Below, in pieces: positions 11,696 through 60,849 of a stretch of DNA of 64,000 bases. A program made the position numbers and the translations under genes. The stretch is from positions 39,632,377 through 39,696,376 of the forward strand of contig OZ034970.1 in the NCBI GenBank assembly GCA_964030785.1, written 5' to 3'. This DNA comes from Siderastrea siderea (Eukaryota > Cnidaria > Anthozoa > Scleractinia > Rhizangiidae). Position 1 is the stretch's first letter; each line of letters opens with the position of its first letter. The notes beneath the pieces are model-generated. The model saw only the letters and a program-made list of their open reading frames with translations. It was not told the DNA's origin and searched no databases.

Positions 11696-11791
11696 GTTGT
11701 GGAACGCCTGACGCAAAATGTAGATCTTTGCAAAAACGCTGAGTTGTTTGACGTTGTAAATTGCAATAATATTGTAATAATTTCACAACAG
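11696..11791. promoter_or_regulatory. Bidirectional promoter between SAP gene and ELAC1
   Basis: The two start codons are head to head with about 96 bp between them, so both promoters and 5' UTRs must overlap or be very short. No TATA box is obvious. An acceptor-like 'tttcacaacag' directly precedes the ELAC1 ATG, so ELAC1 could instead have an upstream noncoding exon. Confidence 0.45.
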
Positions 11792-21075: not shown

Positions 21076-22257
21076 CTATTCCCTCCAAGCTCTTGCTAGC
21101 GTGATATACATCGTTAAGCCACCCCAGGCATCTCCAGAAACACTGTATGCCACTTGTGGTTCTCTGTCTGCACCTGGGTGTCCTCCCTCCCCACCAGCTG
21201 CCAACCATTCCTGCCTGGCTCTTGCGATGTTCTGTTGGTCTCTGTTTTCTTTAATCAGCATGTAAGCACCGCTTCCAATTAGGCCACCGAGTACCACTCC
21301 GGTAGCTGCACAGGCAATTCCACTCAATGGCCCTAGAACAAAACCGGCTGCCCCAACACACCCTCCTATGCCAGCTCCTATCTTGGCTCCTGGGTTTGTA
21401 AGCGAGATCCATGTGAACATGACCCCAAACGCGAAGAGAATCATGTCTATCATTCCTCTTAGCAGCAAAAGCAGATTTTGCATTTGCTCATTATCGCCTA
21501 TAGCTTCTAAAATACGCTGAAAGGTGCTTAAAACGGGAGGCAGGGCAAGTGCCGTGTTGCAACAATCAGGGTTGAGCAGGGTGCTGGTTATGATCAAGAA
21601 GTTTCTCACATTCAAGATCGCTTCGTCGACAATTTGGCAAGATTTCTTTGTGGTAGGGACCTGTCTTCTTTCGTGGTAAGTTCCCTCAAGTAGGCTGATG
21701 ATTGCAGTGTAGCCTTCACAACGACTCGACTCTGAGGCGAACTCTGTTCTAGGAAGCTGTATTTTTTCTTTCTCCAAGGCTTGTAAAATATGGCTCTTTA
21801 AATGCTCTTGATGGCTCGGGCAGAGGTACAGATCTCGTTTAACACCCTTGTGTCGTTTCGGTGCTTTCGGATTTTTGTTCTTGCAGCAAGGATGTCGGCA
21901 GACGACATCATTTGTCTTGAAATTGGGATCAAACTGAAGAAGGACGATTTCTTCCGGGGTATCTTCCATGAAACGCCAAAACTTGGGCTTTCGCAACTTC
22001 ACTTTAGCTTCTACTTTGACAGCAGTTTTGGCTTTCAAAAGCTTTTCTGCATCTTGGAAGTCGGCTTTGGTTACTTTCGGCAGGGCGGAAGGACATTTGA
22101 GGTGCCTCTCGAGGTCGTGTTTCCAGCTGGCAACTGTAGAATATGCTGATGGTACCAGCTTATCCTTGGCGAGTTTTTCCTCACCTGCACGTTGTAGAAG
22201 CAACCCTAAAGCTTTTTGTTTCATGAGTTCGTCCTCATCTGCTGAAAAATTGTACAT
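21076..22257 (-). CDS. Zinc-knuckle / glycine-zipper membrane protein, copy B
   Basis: Intronless 393-aa paralogue of the gene at 17890-19071, function unknown. Residues 1-100 are mostly helical and charged. The zinc-knuckle candidates are C120, C124/C125, C146 and H149 in DVVCRHPCC and RDLYLCPSHQ. Conserved blocks are IVLLQFDPNF (104-113), GYTAIISLLEGTYH (182-195), DEAILNVRNFLIITSTLLNPD (211-231) and LALPPV (237-242). A hydrophobic helix spans about 269-286. A glycine-zipper segment (GAGIGGCVGAAGF, GVVLGGLIGSGAY) spans about 290-332, with a short soluble tail. No signal peptide is seen, so tail-anchored or internal-membrane topology is possible. Conservation with copy A through all blocks argues that both are real genes. 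Confidence 0.8.
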   Translation of the reverse strand: MYNFSADEDELMKQKALGLLLQRAGEEKLAKDKLVPSAYSTVASWKHDLERHLKCPSALPKVTKADFQDAEKLLKAKTAVKVEAKVKLRKPKFWRFMEDTPEEIVLLQFDPNFKTNDVVCRHPCCKNKNPKAPKRHKGVKRDLYLCPSHQEHLKSHILQALEKEKIQLPRTEFASESSRCEGYTAIISLLEGTYHERRQVPTTKKSCQIVDEAILNVRNFLIITSTLLNPDCCNTALALPPVLSTFQRILEAIGDNEQMQNLLLLLRGMIDMILFAFGVMFTWISLTNPGAKIGAGIGGCVGAAGFVLGPLSGIACAATGVVLGGLIGSGAYMLIKENRDQQNIARARQEWLAAGGEGGHPGADREPQVAYSVSGDAWGGLTMYITLARAWRE

Positions 22258-34810: not shown

Positions 34811-35956
34811 CTATTCACTAGCGTTCACAACTGCGATTTCTCGTGATTCTTCTTCCCGTCTCTCAAAGGATTCCCTGTTCCGTGGAAGCACGGATGTGGA
34901 GTTAGTCTTGTTTGAGGAGGTTTTTTTCAAATACTGCCATTCTTGACACTTCAAACACCGCCAGCACCTGAGCAAAACCTTTCGAAATTCTCTCTTGAAT
35001 TCTTTATGTCGCCATGCGTATAAAGCGGGATTGACGACTGAATTACTGTACAATAAAATCCGAATCCAAAACCGCGCAAGTCTACTTTGCACCGTTTCTG
35101 GTGCAGCGAAGTGATAGAGGATTAGAATAATGCGAGGATACACCAAAACCACAAACGCTCCAATGACAAATGCGATCGTACCTGCTGTTTTTCTCTCTTT
35201 TGTCTGGCTATAAGCCTGTCTGTTTCTTTGTGGACTCTCCTTTTCGTCTAAGTAGCGAACGAGTCTTGAATCTAGGGTGGTCGTAAAAGATAGGCGTACG
35301 ACTTTGCTGGCCAGCGTGCTAGACTTTCGCTGTCTTCTTATTGACTTCCGTGCAATCTTGAAAATGCGCTTGTAAGTCACCGCAATCACGAGAGTTGCAA
35401 TCAGAACAAACGCTACAAAGAAGATAAGAAATGGTTTGTCGCTAACGCCAGGAAATTTTGGGATACTGGTCACAGCGACGGAGAAAATCCAGATCAGTAA
35501 AATTACTAGACATACTCGCCCTTTCGCAAACTTCACCGACGAGAGATAAAACATCGGGTGCGACAAAGCGATGTAACGGTCGATGCTCATAACAGCAAGG
35601 CTAGAAATAGAAGCGATAATGTTTACTCGCCCAATAAAACCAGCGATTTGAACGACGGCGTTTGGGACAGTTGAACCATGATACAACGCCATATGTTGGG
35701 ACGCGCGCATCGGAACTAAAATCACGCTCACAAGGAAGTCCGCTAATGCCAGCGAAGCTAAGAGGAAGTTAGAAACGACCTGTAGTGATTTAGTCCGGCA
35801 TATTACGATGATTGTCAGAGAATTTCCAAACGCGCCAAGCAGACATAAAATCATCTCGACACACGATGCTAGAAGTACTCCAATAGAACCTTCTTGTGTT
35901 GATTGGGGTTCCTTTCCAGTGGAGTTCATATAATAAGTACTGGCCATTTTTGTCAC
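34811..35956 (-). CDS. Class A (rhodopsin-like) G-protein-coupled receptor
   Basis: Intronless 381-aa seven-helix receptor on the cell surface, ligand unknown. Visible: N-glycosylation site NST (11-13); TM1 with GNS (N45); TM2 with LALADF (D73); TM3 ending IDRYIAL (DRY 126-128); TM4 with an IWIF tryptophan; a long TM5 followed by a basic third loop (RKSIRRQRK); TM6 reading FVVLVYP; and TM7 NSVVNPALY (NPxxY 309-313) followed by a basic helix 8 and a Cys-containing tail. The TM3/loop-2 cysteine pair is not seen and TM6 has no CWxP. That recalls melanocortin/adenosine-type or orphan cnidarian receptors (inference). The start could also be the ATG three codons later. Confidence 0.9.
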   Translation of the reverse strand: MTKMASTYYMNSTGKEPQSTQEGSIGVLLASCVEMILCLLGAFGNSLTIIVICRTKSLQVVSNFLLASLALADFLVSVILVPMRASQHMALYHGSTVPNAVVQIAGFIGRVNIIASISSLAVMSIDRYIALSHPMFYLSSVKFAKGRVCLVILLIWIFSVAVTSIPKFPGVSDKPFLIFFVAFVLIATLVIAVTYKRIFKIARKSIRRQRKSSTLASKVVRLSFTTTLDSRLVRYLDEKESPQRNRQAYSQTKERKTAGTIAFVIGAFVVLVYPRIILILYHFAAPETVQSRLARFWIRILLYSNSVVNPALYAWRHKEFKREFRKVLLRCWRCLKCQEWQYLKKTSSNKTNSTSVLPRNRESFERREEESREIAVVNASE

Positions 35957-37604: not shown

Positions 37605-38141
37605 CCTTATAGCTTGGGAAAACCCATGCATACTAATGTGGGGACACAAATAAAATACAAATAATTAACAACTTGTATTAACAATAAAATCTATGATTCG
37701 AAAACAAAAAAGTCGATGTCCATGCCTTTTATTTCCTCTAGACCTCAGCCAAACGGACTCCACCGACCATCATCACACCCCTCTGTAACAGACCCAGTGG
37801 AATCTTTATCTTCACTGGGTTTTTGGAAAAAACGTCACTGGGTTGGCCAATTTCCCACTGGGTCGGCTTATTTTCCGGTGGGTTTTTTTTCATAAGCTTA
37901 TTCGATACAAAAATGGCCAGTTGTCGAAAATGAGAGGTTTCTATTGTTTTTCCATTATCCCCTTCCCCGCAAGTGGCTTCTTTATAGCGGCTAAATTGAA
38001 GGAACTGTCTTGGTCCAGGGAGGAATTAAAGAGGATTATCGCACAAAAAGTGTAACCTAAGTTAGCAAAGTTACAGCAAGAATCAATGTGGGATCACTAA
38101 CCTTTTTGAGACATGCAAAGGTCAGAGAACGGCCATCAAAC

Positions 38142-41100
38142 TCATCGTAAACAAGCAATGATGTCTTGATAACTGTTCCCTCTGCCTCTTCTTTGCCTAC
38201 GATCTTGATATACCACGGTCTCTTGTGCCTCATGATCACTTTCTGAAGGTTCAGCAACTTCTGTACATGTTTCTGTGCCCGCCGTGGATCTTTCCTCGCA
38301 CACGTCTTCATGTGATTCATCTGATTGCAATGCTCGCTTGATGGAATCTTCAAATTGCTCTGCTATCTCCAGAATTTCGCCGTATGTTTCTGTTGTCATC
38401 AAGAATTTAGTTTCCGTCACTGTGACAGCCTCCTCCAAGAACAAGGTCACTACCCCGTCGTTTCCATCACGCAGCACATGCGCATATCTCATGGAAGCAT
38501 TCTTCCAGTTGAGATCTAGGGAATAGCAAATGTTGACATCATCTCGTGCAGTTTCAACAAGAAAGTCCCCGCGGACTCTGGATCGAGGGCCAAGACTTCT
38601 TAGAGATACATTATGGGTTACTCTCAACAAATTGAAAGGCAACCCGTCAGTTCCACGAAAGGCTACTACCTCTCCCACTTCGAAAGCGTTACTGTTGACA
38701 TAACTAGAAACATCATCCTGATCATGCACGGCGGCTACAGCGACAGCATCTTCTTGTGGAGTCGTTGAGGGTGTGAATATGGAATCCCGTATGGGTGTCG
38801 CATTTAAGGGGCGCCTGGTTGCATGCTGGCCAATAATTGTCGGTGGTGTTCCATACTTCCTCTTCTGGAAATCTCTTAAAGTTTTCATGGGTCTGGACTT
38901 GGTAACCATGTGAATACCCCTAAGCTTCGCCTTTTGGTCATCAGTCAAGTCTCCTTTACATCCAAGCATGCTCACATACCCCCGACAAAACGCCATCCTC
39001 CCAATGTACAACTGCTTTCTTAACAAAGCTGGGTCAATGTCCTTACCATTTTCCAAGTTGGTCTTAACTTTCCTTAAGTCTTCAGTAGTAAAGCAATGTT
39101 CATGTCTCTGTTGGAACATCGCCCACATTGCGTCCGAAGAGGTCTCGTTGTCGTCAGAGCCTACAGCAGCATACGTGTAAGTGGAGGACACCTCATCTCT
39201 TGTTCTCCTGACACTGACGTTTTGACACATGGTGTTATCTGAAGTGACAGCAGGGATGACGAAGTGAAAAGCCTCAGTGGCGACACGTTTGGAAAACTGT
39301 AGAACAGTTGGGTTATTTCCTGGGTTCTTCTCAGTCACATGGCCATAGAATCCCTCAATCATGCGCGTGCCAAGAGTCTTAACTTTGATTTCGTTCAGAA
39401 GATTCTCCTTTCCGGTGTACTTGAAATAGTCTGACAGATACTGTACACCATTCACAAGAGTTACGTAAAATCCTTCTGCTGTACGTGAAGCCATCGATCC
39501 ATTGGTTATATCAAGTGAAACAGCACCGGTGTAAGTTCGTATGTCTGTGATAATACTTTTTAACTTGTCAGCTGCCGTGATGATATCTGGAAGTGAATCG
39601 ACCAATGTCTTGTTCCTTACAGAGGAAGCGTGAAGTGGATCAGATGAACGAGCTCTTTCTGACACTAATCCCATTGATTCAGCAATATCGTGCCATGTAG
39701 ACTGAAACTGGACAAGGCCTTTTAAAGAAGATGCCATTCGGATAGCACCTTGGAATTCTGACGGGTGCTCTGCTACGTACAAACATGCGCCCCGCGCCGC
39801 TACACCAGCGGGAAAACACAGTTTGGCGGAGTTGCTAGGTCCATCAGTTTGATCAGGATCATTGAGGTGCCCTAGAATCACAGCAGCCGACTGCTCTGAA
39901 AAATTGATCTTGAAAATACAATGCTTTAGGTGGTCAGAGAAGTAGATCTCTCCATCCATTTCACAGAGCCCGAAAGGAAATGCAACACTATGTGCAGCAC
40001 CAAGCTTGAAAGCTTCTTTCACGCCACTGTCTTCGATTATGACAACCTTTACTTCTCCACTCAGTTCGTCAGTGTATAAGCAGTCTGTTACAACAATTAC
40101 ATTATCCGCAAAGTAGAGGCAATCTATTGGGTGGCTTAATTCGGGACTCTCGATAGTGCGGCATATTGTAATTGAAGTGTAATCATCAGAGAGAGCACAG
40201 AGATAAATCTTGCCTGCAACAGGATTGGTCACCAACACTTGTTCTTTATTTGGAAGACCGCTGCGAATACTAAATGGCTGAAATTGCTGACTCTGGCCAA
40301 GTACTTTTAAGGTGCTTACAGACGTCTTGTATGATGGATGGCGAACAATTCGTGCAACGTTTTTCACGATCCTTATTGAGCACAGCTTTGAGTCACAAAC
40401 AAGTAAATCCTGTTCGCCGTTAGTCAAAGCCAAGCCAGAAATAGAAACCCATTTTCCTTTCTCTGAGGGAACACTCTCTGGTGCGAAAGGGACATCGTCA
40501 TCTGGAACTCCTTGATCATTCACCTGTGCACTTCCTTTCGATATCGGGATCAACTTTCGTGGCAATGGTGTCTGTCTGTAACACGATAGGGACTGATTGG
40601 AATCGTCAGTGTAGTATACAACACCTGCCTTTGATATCACCAGAAACAATGGAGAGGAGATGCCCGAGTGATCTTCGGCAAACCAAGGCCTACGAAGTTC
40701 TGGAATGTCAGTCCTTACCAGTTTCTCAACTTCTCCACAAGCATTGATCACTGACTCACTAACTCTTTGCAAGCTCTGCTCATCAGAGTGTTTGTCTAAC
40801 TGGGATATGGCTTTGTGTGATACCCCTTTCAACATTCTTTCCACAACATCATCTTTTGCCGAGGATAGAAGCAAAGATAAATCTGTTGAGTCATATGAGT
40901 GACGACCATCAAAATGCGTACCCCTCTCCAAAGAAGCTTGAGCATTTTTAACCTGGTGGCCGATGTCATAGATGTGGTAGAAAGGGAATTGCAGAGGGCC
41001 GTCACCATCTCGAAATGATTCAACTGAGGTCGATATCTCCTTCCCAAACTTCTCGTATGCGGACTCTTGGTCAGATATTGAAAGAAGTATGCGTGCTCGC

Positions 41101-41645
41101 GTGCATGTGTTGTCCTCCCCTGTTCTAATTCTCCCAATGCAGGATTCACAGGGTCGCTCGTCGCAGTTCCAGGTATCATAAATTCCAACGTGAATATGAC
41201 ATATCGCTTTATTTAAAAAGCAATCCTTGCAAAAGGCATTGCAAACAGGAGCCAGCCCGCTTCTTTTTGCCGATTCCAAACAAGCCGTACAGGCTGAGAC
41301 GTATTTCAAAACTTCTGTGACACGACTCTTCACATCGTTGTAGTCCCCAGACTTCTCCAAATGGTATATTGCGATGGGAAACGCTACCATGTCATCCAAG
41401 AGATGTAGCAAGAAGACTTCCCCTTGCTTGACCCAACTTAAGTGGCCATCTTTGAACATCTGAATTAAATTCTCCAGCATTTTCTTATACCCATCTTTCG
41501 AAATGTTCTCTGCATCTTCAACTGTTATTGCAGGTGAAATTCCAAATAAACTCTCTTGGTATAAGCAGGCACCAGGCGAGATTGCTTTCTGGTCAAGTAC
41601 AACTGTAGTAAAGACAACCACGGACTGATCGCAACGAAGAACCAT
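38142..41645 (-). CDS. Transposon ORF2: DDE transposase-like protein with inserted beta-propeller, copy 1
   Basis: 1167 aa from the first ATG; the frame is open for 27 further codons from the frameshift site. It should cut and join the element ends in the nucleus. Residues 17-37 (LDQKAISPG...LFGI) look like the first RNase H strand with catalytic D18. Residues 119-169 hold a Cys/His cluster (CxxC, CxxxCxxC, CxxxxCxxC). Residues 225-234 (IYDIGHQVKN) match the DxxHxxKN box with D227. Residues 331-650 carry repeated strands such as GEIYFSDHLKHCIFKI and FPAGVAARGACLYVAEH, resembling NHL propeller blades. Residues 762-783 (MIEGFYGHV...NNPTVLQF) resemble the ENFFG...NPT box with E764. The C-terminal third is unrecognised and ends acidic. 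The motif roles are inference from P/THAP9-type transposases. Confidence 0.75.
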   Translation of the reverse strand: MVLRCDQSVVVFTTVVLDQKAISPGACLYQESLFGISPAITVEDAENISKDGYKKMLENLIQMFKDGHLSWVKQGEVFLLHLLDDMVAFPIAIYHLEKSGDYNDVKSRVTEVLKYVSACTACLESAKRSGLAPVCNAFCKDCFLNKAICHIHVGIYDTWNCDERPCESCIGRIRTGEDNTCTRARILLSISDQESAYEKFGKEISTSVESFRDGDGPLQFPFYHIYDIGHQVKNAQASLERGTHFDGRHSYDSTDLSLLLSSAKDDVVERMLKGVSHKAISQLDKHSDEQSLQRVSESVINACGEVEKLVRTDIPELRRPWFAEDHSGISSPLFLVISKAGVVYYTDDSNQSLSCYRQTPLPRKLIPISKGSAQVNDQGVPDDDVPFAPESVPSEKGKWVSISGLALTNGEQDLLVCDSKLCSIRIVKNVARIVRHPSYKTSVSTLKVLGQSQQFQPFSIRSGLPNKEQVLVTNPVAGKIYLCALSDDYTSITICRTIESPELSHPIDCLYFADNVIVVTDCLYTDELSGEVKVVIIEDSGVKEAFKLGAAHSVAFPFGLCEMDGEIYFSDHLKHCIFKINFSEQSAAVILGHLNDPDQTDGPSNSAKLCFPAGVAARGACLYVAEHPSEFQGAIRMASSLKGLVQFQSTWHDIAESMGLVSERARSSDPLHASSVRNKTLVDSLPDIITAADKLKSIITDIRTYTGAVSLDITNGSMASRTAEGFYVTLVNGVQYLSDYFKYTGKENLLNEIKVKTLGTRMIEGFYGHVTEKNPGNNPTVLQFSKRVATEAFHFVIPAVTSDNTMCQNVSVRRTRDEVSSTYTYAAVGSDDNETSSDAMWAMFQQRHEHCFTTEDLRKVKTNLENGKDIDPALLRKQLYIGRMAFCRGYVSMLGCKGDLTDDQKAKLRGIHMVTKSRPMKTLRDFQKRKYGTPPTIIGQHATRRPLNATPIRDSIFTPSTTPQEDAVAVAAVHDQDDVSSYVNSNAFEVGEVVAFRGTDGLPFNLLRVTHNVSLRSLGPRSRVRGDFLVETARDDVNICYSLDLNWKNASMRYAHVLRDGNDGVVTLFLEEAVTVTETKFLMTTETYGEILEIAEQFEDSIKRALQSDESHEDVCEERSTAGTETCTEVAEPSESDHEAQETVVYQDRRQRRGRGNSYQDIIACLR

Positions 41646-41689
41646 CTTTGATATTCTTTGAAAAATTTCAAGTGCAATTTCAATGAAAT

Positions 41690-42343
41690 TTACAATGACC
41701 CCACTGAAAATGAGGGGAACACAGGCTTTTTTGTACCTCGCAAGGCGGCACTGGCAGCACTAGAGACGGTTTCAACTTGCAATGTTACTGTACAATCTTG
41801 GCGACTCTTCAGAAAAAAGACAAACGATTCCCATGTCGCTGAATTCAAAGTGACTTTGCATTCGCTGTGATTGTAGTAAAGCTGTGCATTCGTTCGAGAA
41901 GTCGAGCAAGCATTTAACACTTTCGTCTTAAATAAATCAAATGCATTAACTGACTTCAATGAAAACATAAATGGAATGAAGCTGTCACTACTGTCTTTTC
42001 TCACAAGAGCAGTATAAACTGGCTCATTTTTCTCATCACCTTTGGAAGCGTGGCGATCCTTCCTTCCAGACTTGCGCCGGTAGGTTTTACGCGTTTTACT
42101 TCTGCTGAATTTCGTCTTCTTATTTTCCACCTCCCGTACATATTTGCTTCGCTTTCCATGTCGACTTCCCGTGCGAAAATCATCAATATCAGAGTCCGAA
42201 GAGGACGAATCGCTTTCGGTTCCACTGCTGGAAGAAGTGCCAGTAGATTCGCCATGTTGTTCGATCGGCACCAGTCCTACGACCGAGTTGAGTGTCACGT
42301 GGTTCAAATCAGGGCGGAAAAGGCGGGAGAACGCTTTTCCCAC
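41690..42343 (-). CDS. Transposon ORF1: Ser-rich/basic N-terminal protein, copy 1
   Basis: 217 aa. Residues 34-55 are a Ser/Asp-rich acidic stretch, followed by a strongly basic region (KTKFSRSKTRKTYRRKSGRK) that could be a nuclear signal or DNA contact. The C-terminal half (FKTKVLNAC, LYYNHSECKVTLNSATWESF, CTVTLQV) has the strand-helix spacing of a PB1/ubiquitin-like fold; that is a guess. The stop at 41690 lies inside the upstream-open part of ORF2. The in-phase AAAAAAG at 41726-41732 precedes it, so ORF1 may be the N-terminus of an ORF1-ORF2 protein. A TATATTT sits just upstream of the start. Confidence 0.75.
   Translation of the reverse strand: MGKAFSRLFRPDLNHVTLNSVVGLVPIEQHGESTGTSSSSGTESDSSSSDSDIDDFRTGSRHGKRSKYVREVENKKTKFSRSKTRKTYRRKSGRKDRHASKGDEKNEPVYTALVRKDSSDSFIPFMFSLKSVNAFDLFKTKVLNACSTSRTNAQLYYNHSECKVTLNSATWESFVFFLKSRQDCTVTLQVETVSSAASAALRGTKKPVFPSFSVGSL
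41726..41732 (-). promoter_or_regulatory. Candidate -1 frameshift slippery site, copy 1
   Basis: In ORF1 phase the codons read ACA AAA AAG, giving the heptamer A AAA AAG. After a one-base backward slip, the next codons are GCC TGT GTT in the ORF2 frame. That frame has no stop before the ORF2 ATG and extends upstream to a TAG near 41760. The overlap of the two frames is about 70 nt. A downstream stimulatory structure was not worked out. Confidence 0.55.
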
Positions 42344-42628
42344 CCTGGTTCAAATATATCCCGCAGTTTTTACTCCTCCCAGATTTATTTTGTTTGTTGG
42401 TTTTTTTTAATATAAACGGGCTATTGTTGTATTTAAATTATTTTTATTTTTTGTTTGTTTGCAAAAATACGCTGGGTATGTAAGGTACAATCACTGGGGA
42501 AGCATAAAAACGGCTGGGTAAAAAAAAAATATTCGCTGGGTAGTGGGGAGACTAAATTTCCACTGGGTAGGGGAAAAAAATCCACTGGGTCGGGTTCCAC
42601 TGGGTCTGTTACAGAGGGGTGTATCATC

Positions 42629-44040: not shown

Positions 44041-44043
44041 TAA

Positions 44044-44944
44044 TGCATGGTTCAATTTTACCTGTTACCATCCCCCCCCGGGCAACCCCCGGGATAAGTC
44101 CAGCCCTTCGGGCCCGGGGGTGGGGAATTGTTTGAAACGGTTTTGTCCCGGGGGTAGGGGGCGGGGCAAATCTAAAATAACTCGTTTTTCTTGTGATGCA
44201 CGTCATTAGCTTATCACTTCTCAGTTACCAAATGGCGCCGGACCGCGTAGAGAAGACTGCCTTTTTCCAGGGAAAATCTCTAGAATTTGTAGCAGACTGG
44301 TTGGAGAAGAAAAATCTCTGGAAATTAAAATCTGTATTCAAAGGCACGTTTATTATAAATTGTTAAACGAAGGTTCGTTTGATGCGTACTCGAATGGGTT
44401 CATCAAAAACATAGAAATATTTCTTCAGCGTATTTGTATGAAACAGATGCACGGCTTCAGTTATATTAAACAGAGAACTCAGTCCAGTAATCTTGTGAAA
44501 CAAGCCAAGAAAAACTCCTTTAAAATGCTGTCATCAATTTGCTCTCCGGACCTCTTTTGTGCATGTGCTATATTTAGAATAAAACACGCGGTGAAGAACA
44601 TTCTTTACTCGCCAGCCGAATGCCAGTGCGGTTAGACTTTTTTCTTCAGTTTTCTTTTTCAATGTAGCGTCCATGTTTTTTAATACTATGTAATATCCTT
44701 CGTTCAGTAAACTCTAGAAAAGCGTTTAAGTTCTTGTCAAAACGTCTGGTTGTGCTATTGAACGGAAAACAATTTTGAACACAAAACAACGTATTTGTGG
44801 TCGATGAGGAGTCCCGGGGGTCGGGAATTGTCTCTTTCTGCGTGCCCGGGGGTGGGGAATAGACCGCCAAGTAAGAAAAAAATTGCAAATCCCCGGGGGT
44901 GTGCCCGGGGGGGGGGATGGTAACAGGTAGAATTGAACCCTGCA
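44044..44944. mobile_element. 901-bp element with C/G-rich subterminal repeats and a coding relic
   Basis: Ends are TGCAtGGTTCAATTTTACC and an inverted near copy (GGTTCAATTCTACC), both followed by CTGTTACCATCCCCCC. Repeated 'cccgggggtgggg' words lie inside both ends. Between them a 46-codon frame starts at 44232 (MAPDRVEKTAFFQGKSLEF) and overlaps a second frame to 44635. This looks like the decayed remains of the parent element's protein. Flanking TGCAT on both sides may be the target duplication. Confidence 0.65.
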
Positions 44945-47550
44945 TAAACTTGACGTTTCGTATGCAAGTCAACATACATTTTCAAAAGTGACCGTTACAA
45001 TTTGACAAACCTTTTATACAATAGTTAAATCAAAGAAACATTGTTAATCCAAGAACTGAAGCCAGCTTTTAATGTCAACGTCAGCAGTGAGAAGCTGATA
45101 CTTTATTAATTACCTGTAGCTTTTTATAGATTCACCTGTTAAGGGCCCATTAAAGTATCTCGTTGCTATGATACGCAGTTGCCATGCACGTGCAATTTTA
45201 CTTCCGGTCGTCCGCAAATTTTTCGCGCGCTTTCTGGCCTCCCGGCGCCGGCCCGTCGCCGGTTCAAGTTAGGCTCACAGTCGCCGATAATTTTTTTTAT
45301 TTCGTTGCGACAAACACAAAAGAAACTTTTTTGTTTACTTGTTAAATTGATTTTAATTTTCTGCTTTACGTTTACAACATGTGAGTTGTGCCTTTATTTC
45401 TTAAACTGGGTGTTTCAGTTGAAAATGAGCTCGAAGCTATCCACGTACGCACGTAAACAGAAAGCGCGGCGATGGCTGCAAGTCGCTGGGGAAATGCAGA
45501 TCGCGAAAAGCCGACAGATAACACGCAGTTCTTACAAGGTGTTCTCTGATTGGCTCGATGAAACAATGGGGACTAGAGACTAAATATGGCGGATAGTGGA
45601 ATCGGCGGTGTTTTGCTTCATGACCGTTCTAGAAGTGAACGAAGTGGATAGGAAAGGTATGTTTCAATTTCACTTCGGTTTCACTGGTTAGGCCGTCTGC
45701 ACCTGATATTTAGAGCTGTATAAATTATAGTCGATGTTTGTTTGGAGTTAGGTTTAACATGCTCTGACAAAATCCATCACTGAAAACCTCTGGGAGTAGT
45801 AGATGTTTATGATTCGACGTCGTGCATTTGAGTATTCTATCTTTCTCCAGAAATGCCAAGCGATAAGACGAAGATGAATACCCTAAAAATCATTTCTCGT
45901 TTTCCGTTTTCTAAAATATCCCGCGCAGTCAGAAAGTCTACCGTATATTTCCACGAAAATTTTCAGTCAAACCTCCTATAGTGAGAGTACACAATCTCTG
46001 TCTGGAAAAATTAAGCGATAACAATAACAACAATTTATTATTTTTTACTCCTCATTTTTTCTTATTTTCCCGGCATGGCAACAACATGACAATCTAAAAA
46101 AGTCGCTACCTTACCTATGAGTCTGTAGTAAGCTTACGTTTTACGTACAATTTGGAACAAAACAATGAGTCAAAACACAACTTTATTACTTTCAGCTTCC
46201 TTTAAGTTATCAGATTTATATCTGAAGTGATAATCCGATTACATTTTAACTTGACATGTCTGTTTCAATCAGATGTCACTTTTTAAATACTAACCTGCGA
46301 TCAGGCGTTTTTTTTTTTACAAAATTTCCGCAAGAAAGACTGAATTTCCCATAAACACTTTAATTTATGTATGTTTGCTTTCTAACAATTAACAGCTACC
46401 AAAACCTTGATAAATGATAAAAAGGTGAAATACTTTTGTAGGTAGTATATAGTTCTGGTCATTCCAGGATTCGATCCCAATCACAGCTAATTAAATCGGA
46501 ACAGATGTAAATGTATATCAAGAATCTGCACACATTACAATTGACATACAGTGTAACCCGTACATGTGTAACTATTTGCCTATATGCCAAAATACAAGAA
46601 AAAATTAATTATGAACAACAAGCAAGCTACTTGAATCGCTACCTAGTCAGCAGTAATACTTCTACTGCTTTCTAACAGTACACACAATACCCACACTTTC
46701 ACAAAATATCAATGTATGTAGCAGTTGACTTATGTTGCCTAAGACCTTTTGTTTACATGTGTAATCAAAACCGGCATATTTTCATGCACAAAATAGTTGT
46801 AGACTGATATGTTGATGATTGTCCTCTTTAAAGTCATGCTGCAAAAGTATCTTAACTTAAACATAAACAGAACCTTAACTTGACTGTGCTGTAGTATCAT
46901 CACATATAATCATTAACCAGTAACAGATAAAGTATAGAACTACAAGAAAATCATTGCCAGATTTTTGAGTGTATCAAAGGACATAGTCAGCAGAATAATG
47001 GCTTTGTGTAAGTTAGAGATGTTTAGCACGACCATGCTGATATCCTGTTTTATTTCTTTAGTATTTTGTGAGAATAAAAGTTTTTTTTTTACTATAAAAA
47101 CAGCCCCCTTAGTTGAGACAGACACCCCATTAATACGAATACTTTGTACGGTCCCCCTCACTGCTCAGTATCCATATTACTGGTAACAGGGCTCGAGCAT
47201 ACACAACCTACAAGAACAAATAATGCTCAAAAAGAAAACACGTCCACGTCTGTGACGTGGATGTGGCCTCAGATCAGTAGCACAGTACATATGTACAAAT
47301 GCATAACATGCTAACATGAAATTATTCAAAAGAACTTCAAAATCCATTTGAAATCATTTATATGCATAGAAAATGAACCTTATGACTAGACGAAAAAATT
47401 TAAAAATTCAATAAAAATCCATGTTTTTTTGGCAAATCTGTTAAGTTCAAAATGTTATTGTTTGTGTGAAGGGACAACCTTGTAGCTGTAAACATGGAAC
47501 AGATATGGGAGTTTATATATGCTTAACATCAATAAATTGTACACCTGAAC
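44945..47550. other. Mostly empty spacer; one weak plus-strand ORF
   Basis: A frame at 45179-45583 includes a plausible internal start at 45425 (MSSKLSTYARKQKARRWL), basic and helical. It stops shortly before ATGGCGGAT at 45585, another short frame. A donor-like AAAG|GTATGT follows at 45657. It may mark the 5' end of an unrecognised plus-strand transcript. The rest is AT-rich with no exons seen. Confidence 0.25.
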
Positions 47551-50500: not shown

Positions 50501-53500
50501 TATAAAAACCCTCAGATGGATACATCACATCCTAATACATTATGGGTTATTCATGTAAAGGGCTGTATACAGCTCTTACAAGATGGTGCACAATAGGGCA
50601 ATGAAACAATAAGCAAGAGCCTAACCAATGACGCTAGCCCTAAGAACAATGCATGGGCCTTTATAAATTACCCACTTTGTCAAGTCATGTGTTGTCCTCT
50701 AGAGAAATCAGGGTCTTTGCCTAGGAACAGATTATTGATTCATTTTCATGTGAACTGGATTGGATTTGAAAAAAAAACCCAAGGCAATAAGGTCACTTGT
50801 TGAACTTTTGTTCTTGTTTAATACAGTAAAGGTAAAATGTTATCGTTATAATGTTGTAAACAGTTGTTTTACTCTTTTACACAGCTTACCCCATGCCTGC
50901 AGACCATATGGTAAAACCCGCCGGTTTTGCCAACTTTCTTATTATAGCCATGGCAAGGACAAAAGCCATATAAGATTCCTTTGTACAGAGTCAGCAAGTC
51001 CGATTTCATCTTTGCCTAAAAATGAAATGAACATTCTTGTACACTTTTTTGGTTTGAGGGGGGGGGGGGCAATACTGGCATTTCACATCTTGTACCAGGT
51101 GTCTTCCATCTTTATGGTGATTCCCAACTGGTTTTTTTTTAACTGTGTTTTCCCTATTCCTGCCGCCATTGGAGACATGAACGTTGTTGCTCGTTCTCCA
51201 CTAAATTCGGACTCCGTTAAAAGATGGAATTTGCCTTCAAAATGATACCCCGTTCTGAAAAAAAGGCCAATTTTTCTGCGCCGCCCTAGATTCGTTTTAG
51301 CTTGCAATACCCCGTTTTTCGTGCGTTTAAATGTTATATTCCGTTCTGCGAAACTTCTGGAATGTGGATACCTGGCCGTTCCCGATCTAGGCGGATCATG
51401 CGCGTATAGACATTTGGAAGAGTACACCCCCACCCCGTGGATACGTGTACTGAGGAGCAGGGTAAAAGAACTTTGGAATTCACTAATTTGGGCTTTACAA
51501 AAAAAATAAGGGAGGGCTTAAGGGGGGGGGGGGGGGTATTATTATTTTGTATGGAAAGTGTTGGTTTTACAGAAGAGATTCGTCAATAATTATATTGCAT
51601 GTCATCTTATTTATCTATTTATAATGTGATATTTACCTGCGACCTTCCAGAATAAGGGATTTTGCAGTCCTTACAAAAGTTCTTCAGTTGCTCTGCATTG
51701 TAGTGTTCTAAACAGTTTATGTGGATCTTGCCGGTTTTGATGAGATCATGGAGTGCTGCTTGATCACCTGTTAACCGGTAATAGGTAAAATTTTGTTGTT
51801 TTATAGGAGGACTGATTTCACCATGCTTTTCGAAAATACTAGCTGCTATATGAACTGGGAAATGAACATTTCAGCTAAGACATTTGTTAAATTCTCTTCC
51901 TCTGTCTTAAAGTTTGATATACAGGTAAAGTAGAAAGTAGTAGTTTAATTACAGCAGGACTGTGCTCATACTGTAGCCACTAGCGAATAGCTACGACTTT
52001 CTGACGGTCCCTCAAATCGTAATTGGGTTATATTAATAAAATTTAACCATCACATAGAAAATTGTGGTAAGGAGAAGAGAGTATTTTTCTTTTGTTCTAA
52101 ACAGTTTACTGGGACGAAAGCTGACCGGTACCCCAAAGCCCTCACTTCTCAATTACTCACTAACCATCGGTTTCCCTCGCAGACAGATAAACGCTTTTCT
52201 TCTGTGCCTCAGTATTTAACACCTGTTCTGCTCGAAGTGCAGGCGCAATAACTGGTGGTGAAGTTTCAGCATTAAAGTCTGGCTCAGTGAGGACTCTTGT
52301 GTAGGTGATTTTCTCTAACCAATAAAGCTTTAGATCGTTAAGCATGTCCTCCAGTGTTTTTGTCGTTGTTTGTTACACCCCTCTGTAACAGACCCAGTGG
52401 AATCTTTATCTTCACTGGGTTTTTGGAAAAAACGTCACTGGGTTGGCCAATTTCCCACTGGGTCGGCTTATTTTCCGGTGGGTTTTTTTTCATAAGCTTA
52501 TTCGATACAAAAATGGCCAGTTGTCGAAAATGAGAGGTTTCTATTGTTTTTCCATTATCCCCTTCCCCGCAAGTGGCTTCTTTATAGCGGCTAAATTGAA
52601 GGAACTGTCTTGGTCCAGGGAGGAATTAAAGAGGATTATCGCACAAAAAGTGTAACCTAAGTTAGCAAAGTTACAGCAAGAATCAATGTGGGATCACTAA
52701 CCTTTTTGAGACATGCAAAGGTCAGAGAACGGCCATCAAACTCATCGTAAACAAGCAATGATGTCTTGATAACTGTTCCCTCTGCCTCTTCTTTGCCTAC
52801 GATCTTGATATACCACGGTCTCTTGTGCCTCATGATCACTTTCTGAAGGTTCAGCAACTTCTGTACATGTTTCTGTGCCCGCCGTGGATCTTTCCTCGCA
52901 CACGTCTTCATGTGATTCATCTGATTGCAATGCTCGCTTGATGGAATCTTCAAATTGCTCTGCTATCTCCAGAATTTCGCCGTATGTTTCTGTTGTCATC
53001 AAGAATTTAGTTTCCGTCACTGTGACAGCCTCCTCCAAGAACAAGGTCACTACCCCGTCGTTTCCATCACGCAGCACATGCGCATATCTCATGGAAGCAT
53101 TCTTCCAGTTGAGATCTAGGGAATAGCAAATGTTGACATCATCTCGTGCAGTTTCAACAAGAAAGTCCCCGCGGACTCTGGATCGAGGGCCAAGACTTCT
53201 TAGAGATACATTATGGGTTACTCTCAACAAATTGAAAGGCAACCCGTCAGTTCCACGAAAGGCTACTACCTCTCCCACTTCGAAAGCGTTACTGTTGACA
53301 TAACTAGAAACATCATCCTGATCATGCACGGCGGCTACAGCGACAGCATCTTCTTGTGGAGTCGTTGAGGGTGTGAATATGGAATCCCGTATGGGTGTCG
53401 CATTTAAGGGGCGCCTGGTTGCATGCTGGCCAATAATTGTCGGTGGTGTTCCATACTTCCTCTTCTGGAAATCTCTTAAAGTTTTCATGGGTCTGGACTT

Positions 53501-56500
53501 GGTAACCATGTGAATACCCCTAAGCTTCGCCTTTTGGTCATCAGTCAAGTCTCCTTTACATCCAAGCATGCTCACATACCCCCGACAAAACGCCATCCTC
53601 CCAATGTACAACTGCTTTCTTAACAAAGCTGGGTCAATGTCCTTACCATTTTCCAAGTTGGTCTTAACTTTCCTTAAGTCTTCAGTAGTAAAGCAATGTT
53701 CATGTCTCTGTTGGAACATCGCCCACATTGCGTCCGAAGAGGTCTCGTTGTCGTCAGAGCCTACAGCAGCATACGTGTAAGTGGAGGACACCTCATCTCT
53801 TGTTCTCCTGACACTGACGTTTTGACACATGGTGTTATCTGAAGTGACAGCAGGGATGACGAAGTGAAAAGCCTCAGTGGCGACACGTTTGGAAAACTGT
53901 AGAACAGTTGGGTTATTTCCTGGGTTCTTCTCAGTCACATGGCCATAGAATCCCTCAATCATGCGCGTGCCAAGAGTCTTAACTTTGATTTCGTTCAGAA
54001 GATTCTCCTTTCCGGTGTACTTGAAATAGTCTGACAGATACTGTACACCATTCACAAGAGTTACGTAAAATCCTTCTGCTGTACGTGAAGCCATCGATCC
54101 ATTGGTTATATCAAGTGAAACAGCACCGGTGTAAGTTCGTATGTCTGTGATAATACTTTTTAACTTGTCAGCTGCCGTGATGATATCTGGAAGTGAATCG
54201 ACCAATGTCTTGTTCCTTACAGAGGAAGCGTGAAGTGGATCAGATGAACGAGCTCTTTCTGACACTAATCCCATTGATTCAGCAATATCGTGCCATGTAG
54301 ACTGAAACTGGACAAGGCCTTTTAAAGAAGATGCCATTCGGATAGCACCTTGGAATTCTGACGGGTGCTCTGCTACGTACAAACATGCGCCCCGCGCCGC
54401 TACACCAGCGGGAAAACACAGTTTGGCGGAGTTGCTAGGTCCATCAGTTTGATCAGGATCATTGAGGTGCCCTAGAATCACAGCAGCCGACTGCTCTGAA
54501 AAATTGATCTTGAAAATACAATGCTTTAGGTGGTCAGAGAAGTAGATCTCTCCATCCATTTCACAGAGCCCGAAAGGAAATGCAACACTATGTGCAGCAC
54601 CAAGCTTGAAAGCTTCTTTCACGCCACTGTCTTCGATTATGACAACCTTTACTTCTCCACTCAGTTCGTCAGTGTATAAGCAGTCTGTTACAACAATTAC
54701 ATTATCCGCAAAGTAGAGGCAATCTATTGGGTGGCTTAATTCGGGACTCTCGATAGTGCGGCATATTGTAATTGAAGTGTAATCATCAGAGAGAGCACAG
54801 AGATAAATCTTGCCTGCAACAGGATTGGTCACCAACACTTGTTCTTTATTTGGAAGACCGCTGCGAATACTAAATGGCTGAAATTGCTGACTCTGGCCAA
54901 GTACTTTTAAGGTGCTTACAGACGTCTTGTATGATGGATGGCGAACAATTCGTGCAACGTTTTTCACGATCCTTATTGAGCACAGCTTTGAGTCACAAAC
55001 AAGTAAATCCTGTTCGCCGTTAGTCAAAGCCAAGCCAGAAATAGAAACCCATTTTCCTTTCTCTGAGGGAACACTCTCTGGTGCGAAAGGGACATCGTCA
55101 TCTGGAACTCCTTGATCATTCACCTGTGCACTTCCTTTCGATATCGGGATCAACTTTCGTGGCAATGGTGTCTGTCTGTAACACGATAGGGACTGATTGG
55201 AATCGTCAGTGTAGTATACAACACCTGCCTTTGATATCACCAGAAACAATGGAGAGGAGATGCCCGAGTGATCTTCGGCAAACCAAGGCCTACGAAGTTC
55301 TGGAATGTCAGTCCTTACCAGTTTCTCAACTTCTCCACAAGCATTGATCACTGACTCACTAACTCTTTGCAAGCTCTGCTCATCAGAGTGTTTGTCTAAC
55401 TGGGATATGGCTTTGTGTGATACCCCTTTCAACATTCTTTCCACAACATCATCTTTTGCCGAGGATAGAAGCAAAGATAAATCTGTTGAGTCATATGAGT
55501 GACGACCATCAAAATGCGTACCCCTCTCCAAAGAAGCTTGAGCATTTTTAACCTGGTGGCCGATGTCATAGATGTGGTAGAAAGGGAATTGCAGAGGGCC
55601 GTCACCATCTCGAAATGATTCAACTGAGGTCGATATCTCCTTCCCAAACTTCTCGTATGCGGACTCTTGGTCAGATATTGAAAGAAGTATGCGTGCTCGC
55701 GTGCATGTGTTGTCCTCCCCTGTTCTAATTCTCCCAATGCAGGATTCACAGGGTCGCTCGTCGCAGTTCCAGGTATCATAAATTCCAACGTGAATATGAC
55801 ATATCGCTTTATTTAAAAAGCAATCCTTGCAAAAGGCATTGCAAACAGGAGCCAGCCCGCTTCTTTTTGCCGATTCCAAACAAGCCGTACAGGCTGAGAC
55901 GTATTTCAAAACTTCTGTGACACGACTCTTCACATCGTTGTAGTCCCCAGACTTCTCCAAATGGTATATTGCGATGGGAAACGCTACCATGTCATCCAAG
56001 AGATGTAGCAAGAAGACTTCCCCTTGCTTGACCCAACTTAAGTGGCCATCTTTGAACATCTGAATTAAATTCTCCAGCATTTTCTTATACCCATCTTTCG
56101 AAATGTTCTCTGCATCTTCAACTGTTATTGCAGGTGAAATTCCAAATAAACTCTCTTGGTATAAGCAGGCACCAGGCGAGATTGCTTTCTGGTCAAGTAC
56201 AACTGTAGTAAAGACAACCACGGACTGATCGCAACGAAGAACCATCTTTGATATTCTTTGAAAAATTTCAAGTGCAATTTCAATGAAATTTACAATGACC
56301 CCACTGAAAATGAGGGGAACACAGGCTTTTTTGTACCTCGCAAGGCGGCACTGGCAGCACTAGAGACGGTTTCAACTTGCAATGTTACTGTACAATCTTG
56401 GCGACTCTTCAGAAAAAAGACAAACGATTCCCATGTCGCTGAATTCAAAGTGACTTTGCATTCGCTGTGATTGTAGTAAAGCTGTGCATTCGTTCGAGAA

Positions 56501-57882
56501 GTCGAGCAAGCATTTAACACTTTCGTCTTAAATAAATCAAATGCATTAACTGACTTCAATGAAAACATAAATGGAATGAAGCTGTCACTACTGTCTTTTC
56601 TCACAAGAGCAGTATAAACTGGCTCATTTTTCTCATCACCTTTGGAAGCGTGGCGATCCTTCCTTCCAGACTTGCGCCGGTAGGTTTTACGCGTTTTACT
56701 TCTGCTGAATTTCGTCTTCTTATTTTCCACCTCCCGTACATATTTGCTTCGCTTTCCATGTCGACTTCCCGTGCGAAAATCATCAATATCAGAGTCCGAA
56801 GAGGACGAATCGCTTTCGGTTCCACTGCTGGAAGAAGTGCCAGTAGATTCGCCATGTTGTTCGATCGGCACCAGTCCTACGACCGAGTTGAGTGTCACGT
56901 GGTTCAAATCAGGGCGGAAAAGGCGGGAGAACGCTTTTCCCACCCTGGTTCAAATATATCCCGCAGTTTTTACTCCTCCCAGATTTATTTTGTTTGTTGG
57001 TTTTTTTTAATATAAACGGGCTATTGTTGTATTTAAATTATTTTTATTTTTTGTTTGTTTGCAAAAATACGCTGGGTATGTAAGGTACAATCACTGGGGA
57101 AGCATAAAAACGGCTGGGTAAAAAAAAAATATTCGCTGGGTAGTGGGGAGACTAAATTTCCACTGGGTAGGGGAAAAAAATCCACTGGGTCGGGTTCCAC
57201 TGGGTCTGTTACAGAGGGGTGTTTTGTTCCCTTAAATTTTCTTCTCTTTGTTCGGGGAATTTAACCTAACGTTGGTAAAGAGAGCATTCAGTTCTATGTT
57301 CAGTTGAACTAAAAACATTGCACCAAAAAAGGAATGCTAATAACATCAACAGTCCAGTAGTTCAATTAATGCCACGATTTACTGAGTGCAGATTAACTTA
57401 CATGCTTGTTACTGCAACAGTTCTTTTCGTTGCCGTCGCCAAGGTAAATTTCTCCCGCGATCCCGCAAATTCCACAGATAACGGAATCCAGGTCTCTTGG
57501 AGTTAATGCCTCAAACGCATAGAAGCCATTGTAAAGAAGCTCCTTAATCCACCTCAACTCTCCTTCTGATAAATAGGACTGTAAATTGACCGGTAAGAAC
57601 ACAAGTAAACTGGTAAGTCTAAATTAATAAATCTAAATATCGTTAGCTACCTTGAATAAAGGGAAGTTGTTATGTACAGTGAAACAATTGAAGTTAGTTG
57701 CTTCTTGCATTGTTTAATTTGACAGAAACGTCAAAAATCTTGCGTCACCTGTGACTTTGAAGCCAAGAACGAGACCTTTGAATCGATCACATTTGATATT
57801 GGGCTGCCGCGCTTGAAGTGCTCCCTCCATTCTTCTAGGATGTCGAATGACACCAACACTTTGTCACTCATGTTAAAGAGAC
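47558..57882 (-). CDS. Multi-exon HMGXB3-like gene, partial at 5' end
   Basis: Six exons join in phase: 57882-57749, 57578-57402, 52348-52165, 51767-51637, 48830-48610 and 47966-47558 (stop). That gives about 418 aa, with the N-terminus missing upstream. Key blocks: CGICGIAGEIYLGDGNEKNCC (Cys-rich), INCLEHYNAEQLKNFCKDC, ESVRDAADLYLSV, NDSPCGFVRHLECRDPEKAN, TLWGEFSGCFQRPE, and a His/Cys-rich C-terminus with LCLFHNIDLCQHANC and FLFNFLMDFYQNQAIV. These recall the C-terminal part of HMGXB3 and related cnidarian proteins, recognised from memory and so uncertain. Function unknown; the motifs suggest zinc binding. Transposon copy 2 occupies the 52349-57401 intron. The last acceptor (CAG before AACTGG) was chosen because it restores phase. 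Confidence 0.6.
48914..49543. mobile_element. G-rich MITE in the HMGXB3-like gene
   Basis: Left 'tactctggatttcaagtgtt' is mirrored by right 'cacttgaaatctggagta', with ACATG(C/T)... outer ends. Interior repeats of 'gggatttttttggg' words lie near both ends. Intronic. Structurally like the other C/G-rich elements at 3812 and 44044, but with different ends. Confidence 0.6.
51050..51545. repeat. G-run-bounded repetitive segment, possible MITE
   Basis: Long G runs at 51056-51070 and 51522-51537 enclose repeated 'taccccgttctg', 'taccccgttttt' and 'attccgttctg' words. Terminal inverted repeats were not resolved. Confidence 0.35.
52742..56245 (-). CDS. Transposon ORF2: DDE transposase-like protein, copy 2
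   Basis: 1167-aa protein identical to the copy 1 product (38142-41645): D18, D227 and E764 candidates, Cys cluster 119-169, propeller-like 331-650. No disabling change, so both copies are potential sources of transposase. Being in an intron, it could be expressed from its own left-facing promoter or read through from the host gene. Confidence 0.75.
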   Translation of the reverse strand: MVLRCDQSVVVFTTVVLDQKAISPGACLYQESLFGISPAITVEDAENISKDGYKKMLENLIQMFKDGHLSWVKQGEVFLLHLLDDMVAFPIAIYHLEKSGDYNDVKSRVTEVLKYVSACTACLESAKRSGLAPVCNAFCKDCFLNKAICHIHVGIYDTWNCDERPCESCIGRIRTGEDNTCTRARILLSISDQESAYEKFGKEISTSVESFRDGDGPLQFPFYHIYDIGHQVKNAQASLERGTHFDGRHSYDSTDLSLLLSSAKDDVVERMLKGVSHKAISQLDKHSDEQSLQRVSESVINACGEVEKLVRTDIPELRRPWFAEDHSGISSPLFLVISKAGVVYYTDDSNQSLSCYRQTPLPRKLIPISKGSAQVNDQGVPDDDVPFAPESVPSEKGKWVSISGLALTNGEQDLLVCDSKLCSIRIVKNVARIVRHPSYKTSVSTLKVLGQSQQFQPFSIRSGLPNKEQVLVTNPVAGKIYLCALSDDYTSITICRTIESPELSHPIDCLYFADNVIVVTDCLYTDELSGEVKVVIIEDSGVKEAFKLGAAHSVAFPFGLCEMDGEIYFSDHLKHCIFKINFSEQSAAVILGHLNDPDQTDGPSNSAKLCFPAGVAARGACLYVAEHPSEFQGAIRMASSLKGLVQFQSTWHDIAESMGLVSERARSSDPLHASSVRNKTLVDSLPDIITAADKLKSIITDIRTYTGAVSLDITNGSMASRTAEGFYVTLVNGVQYLSDYFKYTGKENLLNEIKVKTLGTRMIEGFYGHVTEKNPGNNPTVLQFSKRVATEAFHFVIPAVTSDNTMCQNVSVRRTRDEVSSTYTYAAVGSDDNETSSDAMWAMFQQRHEHCFTTEDLRKVKTNLENGKDIDPALLRKQLYIGRMAFCRGYVSMLGCKGDLTDDQKAKLRGIHMVTKSRPMKTLRDFQKRKYGTPPTIIGQHATRRPLNATPIRDSIFTPSTTPQEDAVAVAAVHDQDDVSSYVNSNAFEVGEVVAFRGTDGLPFNLLRVTHNVSLRSLGPRSRVRGDFLVETARDDVNICYSLDLNWKNASMRYAHVLRDGNDGVVTLFLEEAVTVTETKFLMTTETYGEILEIAEQFEDSIKRALQSDESHEDVCEERSTAGTETCTEVAEPSESDHEAQETVVYQDRRQRRGRGNSYQDIIACLR
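56290..56943 (-). CDS. Transposon ORF1: Ser-rich/basic protein, copy 2
   Basis: 217-aa protein identical to copy 1 ORF1. The overlap with the ORF2 frame and the in-phase AAAAAAG are preserved. If the split were merely a mutation, it arose before both insertions and the source was still mobilised. Confidence 0.75.
   Translation of the reverse strand: MGKAFSRLFRPDLNHVTLNSVVGLVPIEQHGESTGTSSSSGTESDSSSSDSDIDDFRTGSRHGKRSKYVREVENKKTKFSRSKTRKTYRRKSGRKDRHASKGDEKNEPVYTALVRKDSSDSFIPFMFSLKSVNAFDLFKTKVLNACSTSRTNAQLYYNHSECKVTLNSATWESFVFFLKSRQDCTVTLQVETVSSAASAALRGTKKPVFPSFSVGSL
56326..56332 (-). promoter_or_regulatory. Candidate -1 frameshift slippery site, copy 2
   Basis: A AAA AAG in ORF1 phase, identical to 41726-41732. 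Confidence 0.55.
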
Positions 57883-59168: not shown

Positions 59169-60849
59169 GCCTATTTTGTGTGACAACAAAAGACAGTTCA
59201 CCTATTACAAAAGACAGTTCACCTATTACTGTTCCAATTATTACCAGTCTTATTAATAGCTCCTTCTCTTCAAATATTTTTCCTCAACCTTGGAAAATAG
59301 CTGAAGTTGTTCCTATCCATAAATCAGGTGACAGTGAAGACCCCGCTAACACCCGTCCTGTATCTCTACTACCAATTGTATCTAAAGTTTGTGAGAGATC
59401 CGCACACTCTCAGTTCACGACCTTCCTGAATTCAAATGATATAGTTCATAACCTCCAAAGTGGAAATAGAAAATTCCATTCTACTGAATCTGCTTTACTA
59501 CATTATACTGATGAACTACTTAAGAATATGGATGATAAGAAGATATCCGTTATCGTTTTGTTGGACATGTCGAAGGCTTTCGACAGTATTCGCCATGACC
59601 TGATGATGTGTAAACTTCATAAATTAGGTGTGTCCGATACTGCATGTGCCTGGTTTAAGAGTTATTTATCACAACGCAAGCAAGTCGTAAAGATAGAGAA
59701 CACCTTGTCTGAGACCTTGCCCTTAACAGTAGGAGTACCGCAAGGGTCCATTCTTGGACCTGTGCTGTTTACCCTATACGTAAACGATCTTCTTCGTGTT
59801 CCAAAACACTGCAGAGCTTTAGGTTATGTGGATGACACTAAAATTTTTTTGGCGCTTCCTTCATGTCAACTCTCCGACGCTGTGACTGCTGTTAATCAAG
59901 ACCTTAGAGATATTTCGAGATGGTGTTGTGCTAATTCCTTATTGATCAATCCAGACAAGACAAAGTTGTTACTTGTTGGAGTCCCACAGCTCACGAGAAA
60001 CATAACAGCCGTACCACCTGTAATGCTGCTTGGAAAGGAGGTGAAGCCTGTTACTGTCGCAAAGGATTTGGGAGTATATATCGACAGCCACCTTAATTAC
60101 AATGAACACATTACAAAAACTGTCTCGACTTGCATGTATATGCTAAGTCGAGTTAATAGGATAAAACACCTTCTGGACAGTAAAACTCTTATTTTTTTAA
60201 TAAATGCCTTTGTTTTTAGTAAATTATATTATTGTTCTACTGTCTGGAGCAACACGACAAAAGAGAATATAAGAAAGCTCCAATTAGTTCAAAATTTTGC
60301 ATGTAGGATTGTTTTAGGTTTGAAAAAGTATGACCATATTACTGAAGGCCTCAAATCTTTGAATTGGATAAGTGTAAAAGATAAATTGCTTTTAAACGAT
60401 TTAGTAATGGTTCATAAATGTCTACATGGGCAAATGCCAAATTACCTAAGTGATAAATTTATAAAACGCTCAAAAATACATGATAGAAATACTAGGAAAA
60501 AAGATGAATTGAATTTACCAAAATGTAGATTAAAAATAGGTCAGCGGTCGTTTGCTTTTCGAGGCGCCAAGTCATATAATGACCTCCCAGACGATATTAA
60601 GAAAACTAGGGACACAAAGCATTTCAAGAAGAATTTATATAACTATTTATTAAAACTTTAGAGATTTCCCCGTTATTAGCTTTTATTATTTCGAAATTTT
60701 TAATTCTTACAATAGTATTTTATATTTTTTAGAGAAGATTAGTATTTTCTATAATATATTTTTTGTCATTAGTTTATTATTATTTGTGTATTTATAGCGG
60801 AAGAGCCCCTTTGGGAGCTATAATAAAGTATGTATGTATGTATGTATGT
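59169..60849 (+). mobile_element. 5'-truncated LINE (CR1/L2/jockey-like)
   Basis: Carries the C-terminal part of a reverse-transcriptase ORF, a short AT-rich 3' UTR, the 3' terminal sequence 'gagcccctttgggagctata' and a TATG microsatellite tail (60826-60849) in place of poly-A. The 5' end begins abruptly with a tandem 'aaaagacagttcacctatta' duplication, typical of truncated target-primed insertions. No endonuclease domain. Confidence 0.85.
59180..60661 (+). CDS. LINE reverse transcriptase, N-terminally truncated
   Basis: 493 aa. Visible RT blocks: WKIAEVVPIHKSGD (38-51), NTRPVSLLP, VIVLLDMSKAFDSI (124-137, catalytic D129), VGVPQGSILGPVLFTLYVNDL (184-204), GYVDDTKIF (215-223; catalytic box YVDD instead of the usual YADD/FADD), NPDKTKLLLVG, and a C-terminal LYYCSTVWSN...RGAKSYNDLPDDIK motif common to metazoan LINEs. 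The start codon is simply the first in-frame ATG; true N-terminal parts are lost. The long intact frame suggests recent insertion. Confidence 0.9.
   Translation: MTTKDSSPITKDSSPITVPIITSLINSSFSSNIFPQPWKIAEVVPIHKSGDSEDPANTRPVSLLPIVSKVCERSAHSQFTTFLNSNDIVHNLQSGNRKFHSTESALLHYTDELLKNMDDKKISVIVLLDMSKAFDSIRHDLMMCKLHKLGVSDTACAWFKSYLSQRKQVVKIENTLSETLPLTVGVPQGSILGPVLFTLYVNDLLRVPKHCRALGYVDDTKIFLALPSCQLSDAVTAVNQDLRDISRWCCANSLLINPDKTKLLLVGVPQLTRNITAVPPVMLLGKEVKPVTVAKDLGVYIDSHLNYNEHITKTVSTCMYMLSRVNRIKHLLDSKTLIFLINAFVFSKLYYCSTVWSNTTKENIRKLQLVQNFACRIVLGLKKYDHITEGLKSLNWISVKDKLLLNDLVMVHKCLHGQMPNYLSDKFIKRSKIHDRNTRKKDELNLPKCRLKIGQRSFAFRGAKSYNDLPDDIKKTRDTKHFKKNLYNYLLKL

Follow-up and report, generated by a model that had tools for sequence, protein, structure and literature searches.

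We identified a DNA transposon family in Siderastrea siderea that is mobile via inverted ends with 6-bp staggered insertion, and whose main protein carries an NHL beta-propeller that is real, long-conserved and in an unusual place. Two copies of the element are present in the stretch of 64,000 nucleotides that was analyzed (the window). We consider it likely that the main protein (ORF2) represents most of a cut-and-paste DNA transposase, with D18, D192 and E764 as the triad and the propeller inside the insertion domain. The chances are about even that the family represents an undescribed DDE superfamily, in which a complete NHL propeller would interrupt the RNase H fold at the beta5-alpha4 gap and replace the helical or GTP-binding domains found there in other transposases.

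The ends, duplications and copies of the element in the window are as follows.

37769..37774, no strand: TSD ATCATC on the low-coordinate side of copy 1, identical to 42623-42628
37775-42622: element copy 1, TIR-bounded, 4848 bp
37775..37802, + strand: 28-bp TIR of copy 1 (ACACCCCTCTGTAACAGACCCAGTGGAA), with exact matches in the window and sites with up to two mismatches in the genome
42595..42622, - strand: 28-bp TIR at the opposite end of copy 1, a perfect inverted match
42623..42628, no strand: TSD ATCATC on the high-coordinate side of copy 1
52369-52374 and 57223-57228: TSD TTTGTT of copy 2
52375..57222, - strand: element copy 2, 4848 bp, no differences from copy 1
52742-56245: ORF2 of copy 2
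56290-56943: ORF1 of copy 2

The 28-bp TIR has four exact matches in the window compared to none in 100 shuffles, and the termini of the element read ACAC..GTGT. Copies 1 and 2 are identical over all 4848 positions (0/4848 differences), and because their flanks are unlike and each copy has its own TSD, they represent two insertions and not a segmental duplication. The base identity of the copies suggests recent movement of the element, which makes the idea testable in cells. The initial annotation had set the feature at 38142..42343; it was right about the ORFs in this span and too narrow about the extent, as the span covers part of one deletion copy (element 37775-42622).

The window contains several other features. 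An inverted-repeat element at 44043-44945 with 37-nt arms (95% complementary, 829 nt apart, CCCGGG-rich) looks like a short non-autonomous transposon. A reverse transcriptase ORF (PF00078, E 1.5e-30) is located at 59180-60661 (+), a rhodopsin-type 7-transmembrane receptor frame (PF00001, E 3.5e-37) at 34811-35956 (-) and a metallo-beta-lactamase-fold ORF (PF00753, E 1.1e-11) at 11663-12250 (+). The ORFs at 17890-19113 (-) and 21076-22257 (-), 407 and 393 aa long, had no Pfam hit at an E-value threshold of 0.001.

The 831-Mb assembly (402 contigs) was searched for further members of the family. A protein search returned at least 47 matches at several levels of divergence, and the TIR with at most two mismatches was found at 25 genomic sites compared to 0 for the reversed control. 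Eighteen of these 25 TIR-like sites were used as nine pairs, the remaining seven single sites being left uncounted; no second end was found near the single TIR site L064. Perfect 6-bp TSDs (ATCATC, TTTGTT, CCTGGG, AAAGAT, AATTGA, TCAGAA and TTAAGA) flank seven of the nine TIR-paired copies, the two others being L058 and the diverged L061. The family thus displays both the TIRs bounding dispersed copies and the fixed-length TSDs by which cut-and-paste DNA transposons are recognized. One of the nine copies (28.6 kb, on C2) was read only near both ends; it sits in a 2291-aa open frame, which is no evidence since all six frames are open there for kilobases.

Copies of 8756, 8765, 7744, 6632, 4848 (twice) and 2613 bp have common ends and differ in their internal deletions. 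The 8756- and 8765-bp copies are 98.7% identical, and relative to the 8765-bp copy the window copies miss 3911 bp, L058 1010 bp, L059 2094 bp and L060 6146 bp, with repeats of 0-6 bp at the four deletion junctions examined. The 3911-bp deletion in the window copies takes part of exon 1, the stretch that separates exon 1 from the ORF2 exon, and the segment corresponding to residues 1-103 of P0001, which like P0003 is a longer family protein annotated elsewhere. The genome search turned up no full-length copy that is intact, since ORF2 is split into several frames in both 8.7-kb copies (L056 and L057).

The coding features of copy 1 and the motifs of its ORF2 are listed below.

38142..41645, - strand: ORF2, 1167 aa, transposase-like, an uninterrupted frame spanning the first acidic box through the C-terminus
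39285..39362, - strand: Glu box (MIEGFYGHVTEKNPGNNPTVLQFSKR, residues 762-787), in which 39354-39356 encode the candidate catalytic residue E764
39711..40706, - strand: NHL beta-propeller, residues 314-645
40944..40967, - strand: DIGHQVKN, residues 227-234, proposed [C/D]xxH motif after beta5
41070..41072, - strand: D192 ('SISDQES'), proposed second catalytic Asp
41103..41291, - strand: Cys/His cluster, residues 119-181, between D18 and D192
41592..41594, - strand: D18, candidate first catalytic Asp
41690..42343, - strand: ORF1, 217 aa, exon 1 remnant (acidic Ser-rich, then basic region)

The three acidic boxes that the initial annotation had read in order on ORF2 lie, as it described, on a single uninterrupted ORF (41645-38142, -) beside ORF1. 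ORF2 is without the N-terminal segment that is present in P0001 and P0003, and ORF1 goes out of frame past the deletion junction 41737/41738, in the same way in both copies. No N-terminal THAP domain was detected in the frames scanned, a scan made without resolved middle exons. The Cys/His cluster consists of C119, C122, C135, C139, C142, C149, H152, C161, C166, C169 and C181, and each of these ten Cys and one His is conserved in at least 16 of 20-25 alignment rows; judged from this pattern, the cluster probably forms a zinc-binding insert between D1 and D2.

The repeated NHL-like blades noticed earlier in front of the Glu box are borne out, the NHL repeat sequence being supported by sequence profiles and the propeller fold by the structure model; for P0003 the Pfam NHL match is slightly under the cut-off (18.6 vs 20 bits). 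Structure prediction with four sequences gave a mean pLDDT of 34.4. Prediction with 53 sequences, namely the window ORF plus 52 family proteins (of the 58, P0023, P0046 and P0055-P0058 were discarded on visual inspection because they looked chimeric or overlapped weakly), gave a mean pLDDT of 50.0 with only the propeller confident. In the latter model the ten-residue blocks around D18, D192, D227 and E764 have mean pLDDT values of 30 to 37, and the RNase H fold is resolved in neither model, confidence in that part being low. As a measure of selection, comparison of the window copy with paralogue L009 gave dN 0.20/dS 1.53 for the propeller and 0.23/1.82 for the next region, and the propeller values were 0.18/1.62 (83 codons) for L014 and 0.22/1.75 for L022, with dS near saturation. 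Eighteen of the 58 family proteins align unbroken from D227 to at least residue 340, and 6 of the 58 across residues 340-640.

Profile searches did not link ORF2 to a known transposase family. With E values of up to 10 allowed, neither the window ORF nor P0001-P0003 matched a transposase family in Pfam, and none occurs among the families listed for the 53 members (25 of 28). The RNase H domains of the P superfamily (PF21787 and PF21789) and its GTP-binding insertion domain (PF21788) were likewise absent from the searches with ORF2 and P0001-P0003 and from the 25 of 28 families listed; PF21787 and PF21789 have 45 and 56 matches in the genome, none of which is at the listed places of the element. 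NCBIfam gave no match, and viral contigs yielded 11 pattern matches and no relative. No transposases occur among the VIA-align rows, which is uninformative because these rows cover model residues 447-777 only.

Conservation of the acidic boxes was assessed in a family alignment in which some rows are visibly misaligned: D18 is kept in 11 of 14 rows, D192 in 21 of 25 and D227 in 25 of 28, while position 227 is D or C in 25 of 28 and position 230 is H in 24 of 29. Across the 22 genomic loci covering position 764, several of which overlap one copy or are near-identical, E is found at 19, D at two and a gap at one; the loci with less than 90% identity (n=10) have 7 E, 2 D and 1 gap. The boxes at D18, D227 and E764 are thus not chance occurrences, and the conserved D, D, E of a DDE transposase is present in the alignment rows and genomic loci.

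The initial annotation had taken D227 as the second catalytic Asp, an assignment that we propose to revise. ORF2 contains one well-conserved DxxH after D192, at D227, and the D192-D227 spacing is 35 residues in all 15 proteins that match the two-motif pattern among the 58 family proteins, compared to 36 for D303-D339 in Drosophila P transposase. In P transposases, the insertion-domain boundary is marked by a [C/D](2)H motif that immediately follows beta5, and D339 of DmTNP lies outside the triad, though its mutation reduces excision (PMC8230255). On the basis of the DxxH match and the 35-residue spacing, we propose D192 as the second Asp and place D227-H230 directly behind beta5; D227 probably does not have the catalytic role first given to it. 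A triad of D18, D227 and E764, with D192 structural and the propeller right after the second catalytic Asp, is unlikely: D227 is conserved at least as well as D192, but its DxxH corresponds to the post-beta5 signature of P transposases, in which the equivalent Asp is not part of the triad, and a spacing of 35 residues suits that between the second Asp and [C/D]xxH. With D192 as second Asp, the position of the propeller would coincide more closely with the canonical insertion slot. What stands of the arrangement first described is a transposon protein with D/D/E boxes and a propeller ahead of the Glu box; what changes is the identity of the second Asp.

ORF2 could instead be a RAG2-like accessory protein, with the catalytic transposase supplied by another element. 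RAG2 itself serves a DDE enzyme as a propeller accessory, and no RNase H domain was detected in ORF2 by Pfam, PDB profiles or models. We regard this explanation as improbable, as the acidic boxes of ORF2 are conserved and as the 8765-bp copy L057 contains no forward frame of at least 120 aa besides exon 1 (387 aa) and ORF2 pieces, the one other frame of this length being antisense (153 aa). Far less probable still, and already disfavoured, is a host TRIM-NHL-like gene captured by the transposon that is not a transposase. ORF2 has an NHL domain as in TRIM-NHL proteins, its Cys cluster gives weak RING-type matches (TRIM39, E 0.15; TRIM2, E 0.41), and one of the 53 members has a Prok-RING_1 match (0.015). 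The cluster, however, lies between two acidic boxes and not N-terminally as in TRIM-NHL proteins, no B-box family occurs among the Pfam families listed (25 of 28), and each of the six TIR-paired copies read with lengths between 4.8 and 8.8 kb contains ORF2 sequence.

We therefore return to ORF2 as most of a transposase. D18, D192 and E764 would be the three catalytic acids of an RNase H-like domain and carry out cut-and-paste DDE chemistry; D227-H230 would follow directly after beta5, and the ~530 residues between D227-H230 and E764 would constitute the insertion domain, with the propeller as its middle. An RNase H fold split by the propeller is, on these motifs, a likely candidate. From the beta5-alpha4 slot the propeller would keep the transposon end or the target DNA next to the active site, or dock a partner protein, roles that are the most likely ones by analogy with the RAG2 propeller and with the P, Hermes and Tn5 insertion domains. 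The propeller is slightly acidic (29 K/R, 38 D/E), so DNA binding is not evident, and as the charge balance by itself does not point to DNA, a protein partner would be a reasonable alternative. The N-terminally shortened window copies were probably mobilised by protein from a fuller copy rather than by their own. Insertion domains help set how DDE transposases grip transposon ends and cut DNA; if the proposed arrangement is true, the insertion slot tolerates an unrelated fold.

Kinship with P elements was examined with hhalign, using P exons from the genome itself, and was not significant. The whole family scored 22.0 (100 column shuffles: mean 15.3, max 22.2; reversed: 22.1), the D1-D2 region was at chance (12.2, shuffle mean 13.3), and the Glu region alone gave P = 0.004 with Glu box on Glu box. 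The family was also at chance against the P-like L073, though L073 did match the P exons (P = 0.0059). L073 itself (G000:C3:37619200-37619600), a weak P-type RNase H match within a 1349-aa open frame, may be a long P-like protein and another unusual transposase.

Among known systems, the P/THAP9 superfamily (DmTNP) shares the order D, D, [C/D]xxH, insertion domain and Glu box with the element, and by eye the P exons of the same genome have a similar Glu box (E, aromatic, N-P-T) and a similar second-Asp segment. The TIRs are also comparable in length (28 bp vs 31 bp). The differences are an NHL propeller where P has a GTP-binding domain (PF21788), a Cys-rich insert between D1 and D2 only in the element described here, a D1-D2 distance of 174, far above the 73 in P, and the absence of TNP Pfam domains from the families listed and of a significant profile match. 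The TSD is 6 bp, whereas that of the P superfamily is 8 bp (PMC7776569). Assignment of the element to P remains a candidate, as motif and spacing fit and profiles are not significant. IS3EU and GingerRoot have the 6-bp TSD in common with the element, IS3EU ending in TA..TA and GingerRoot mostly so (PMC10045372). IS3EU is excluded by its termini (ACAC..GTGT here vs TA..TA), and no integrase-type Pfam match was found for ORF2 or among the 25 of 28 families listed. The internal-deletion series resembles the deletion derivatives to which P and Ac/Ds transposons give rise.

The NHL propellers of SOQ1, NHLRC2, TRIM71/Lin41 and Brat are alike in sequence profile and fold, whereas the propeller described here is embedded between the acidic boxes of a transposon protein. 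Among the titles listed from the open-licence literature, none describes a propeller inside a transposase. RAG1-RAG2/ProtoRAG, with a TSD of 5 bp, is a DDE enzyme working with a beta-propeller. RAG2 is a separate Kelch protein, whereas the propeller here lies within ORF2, and the element would, if our reading is true, be a one-protein parallel to RAG1 and the RAG2 propeller.
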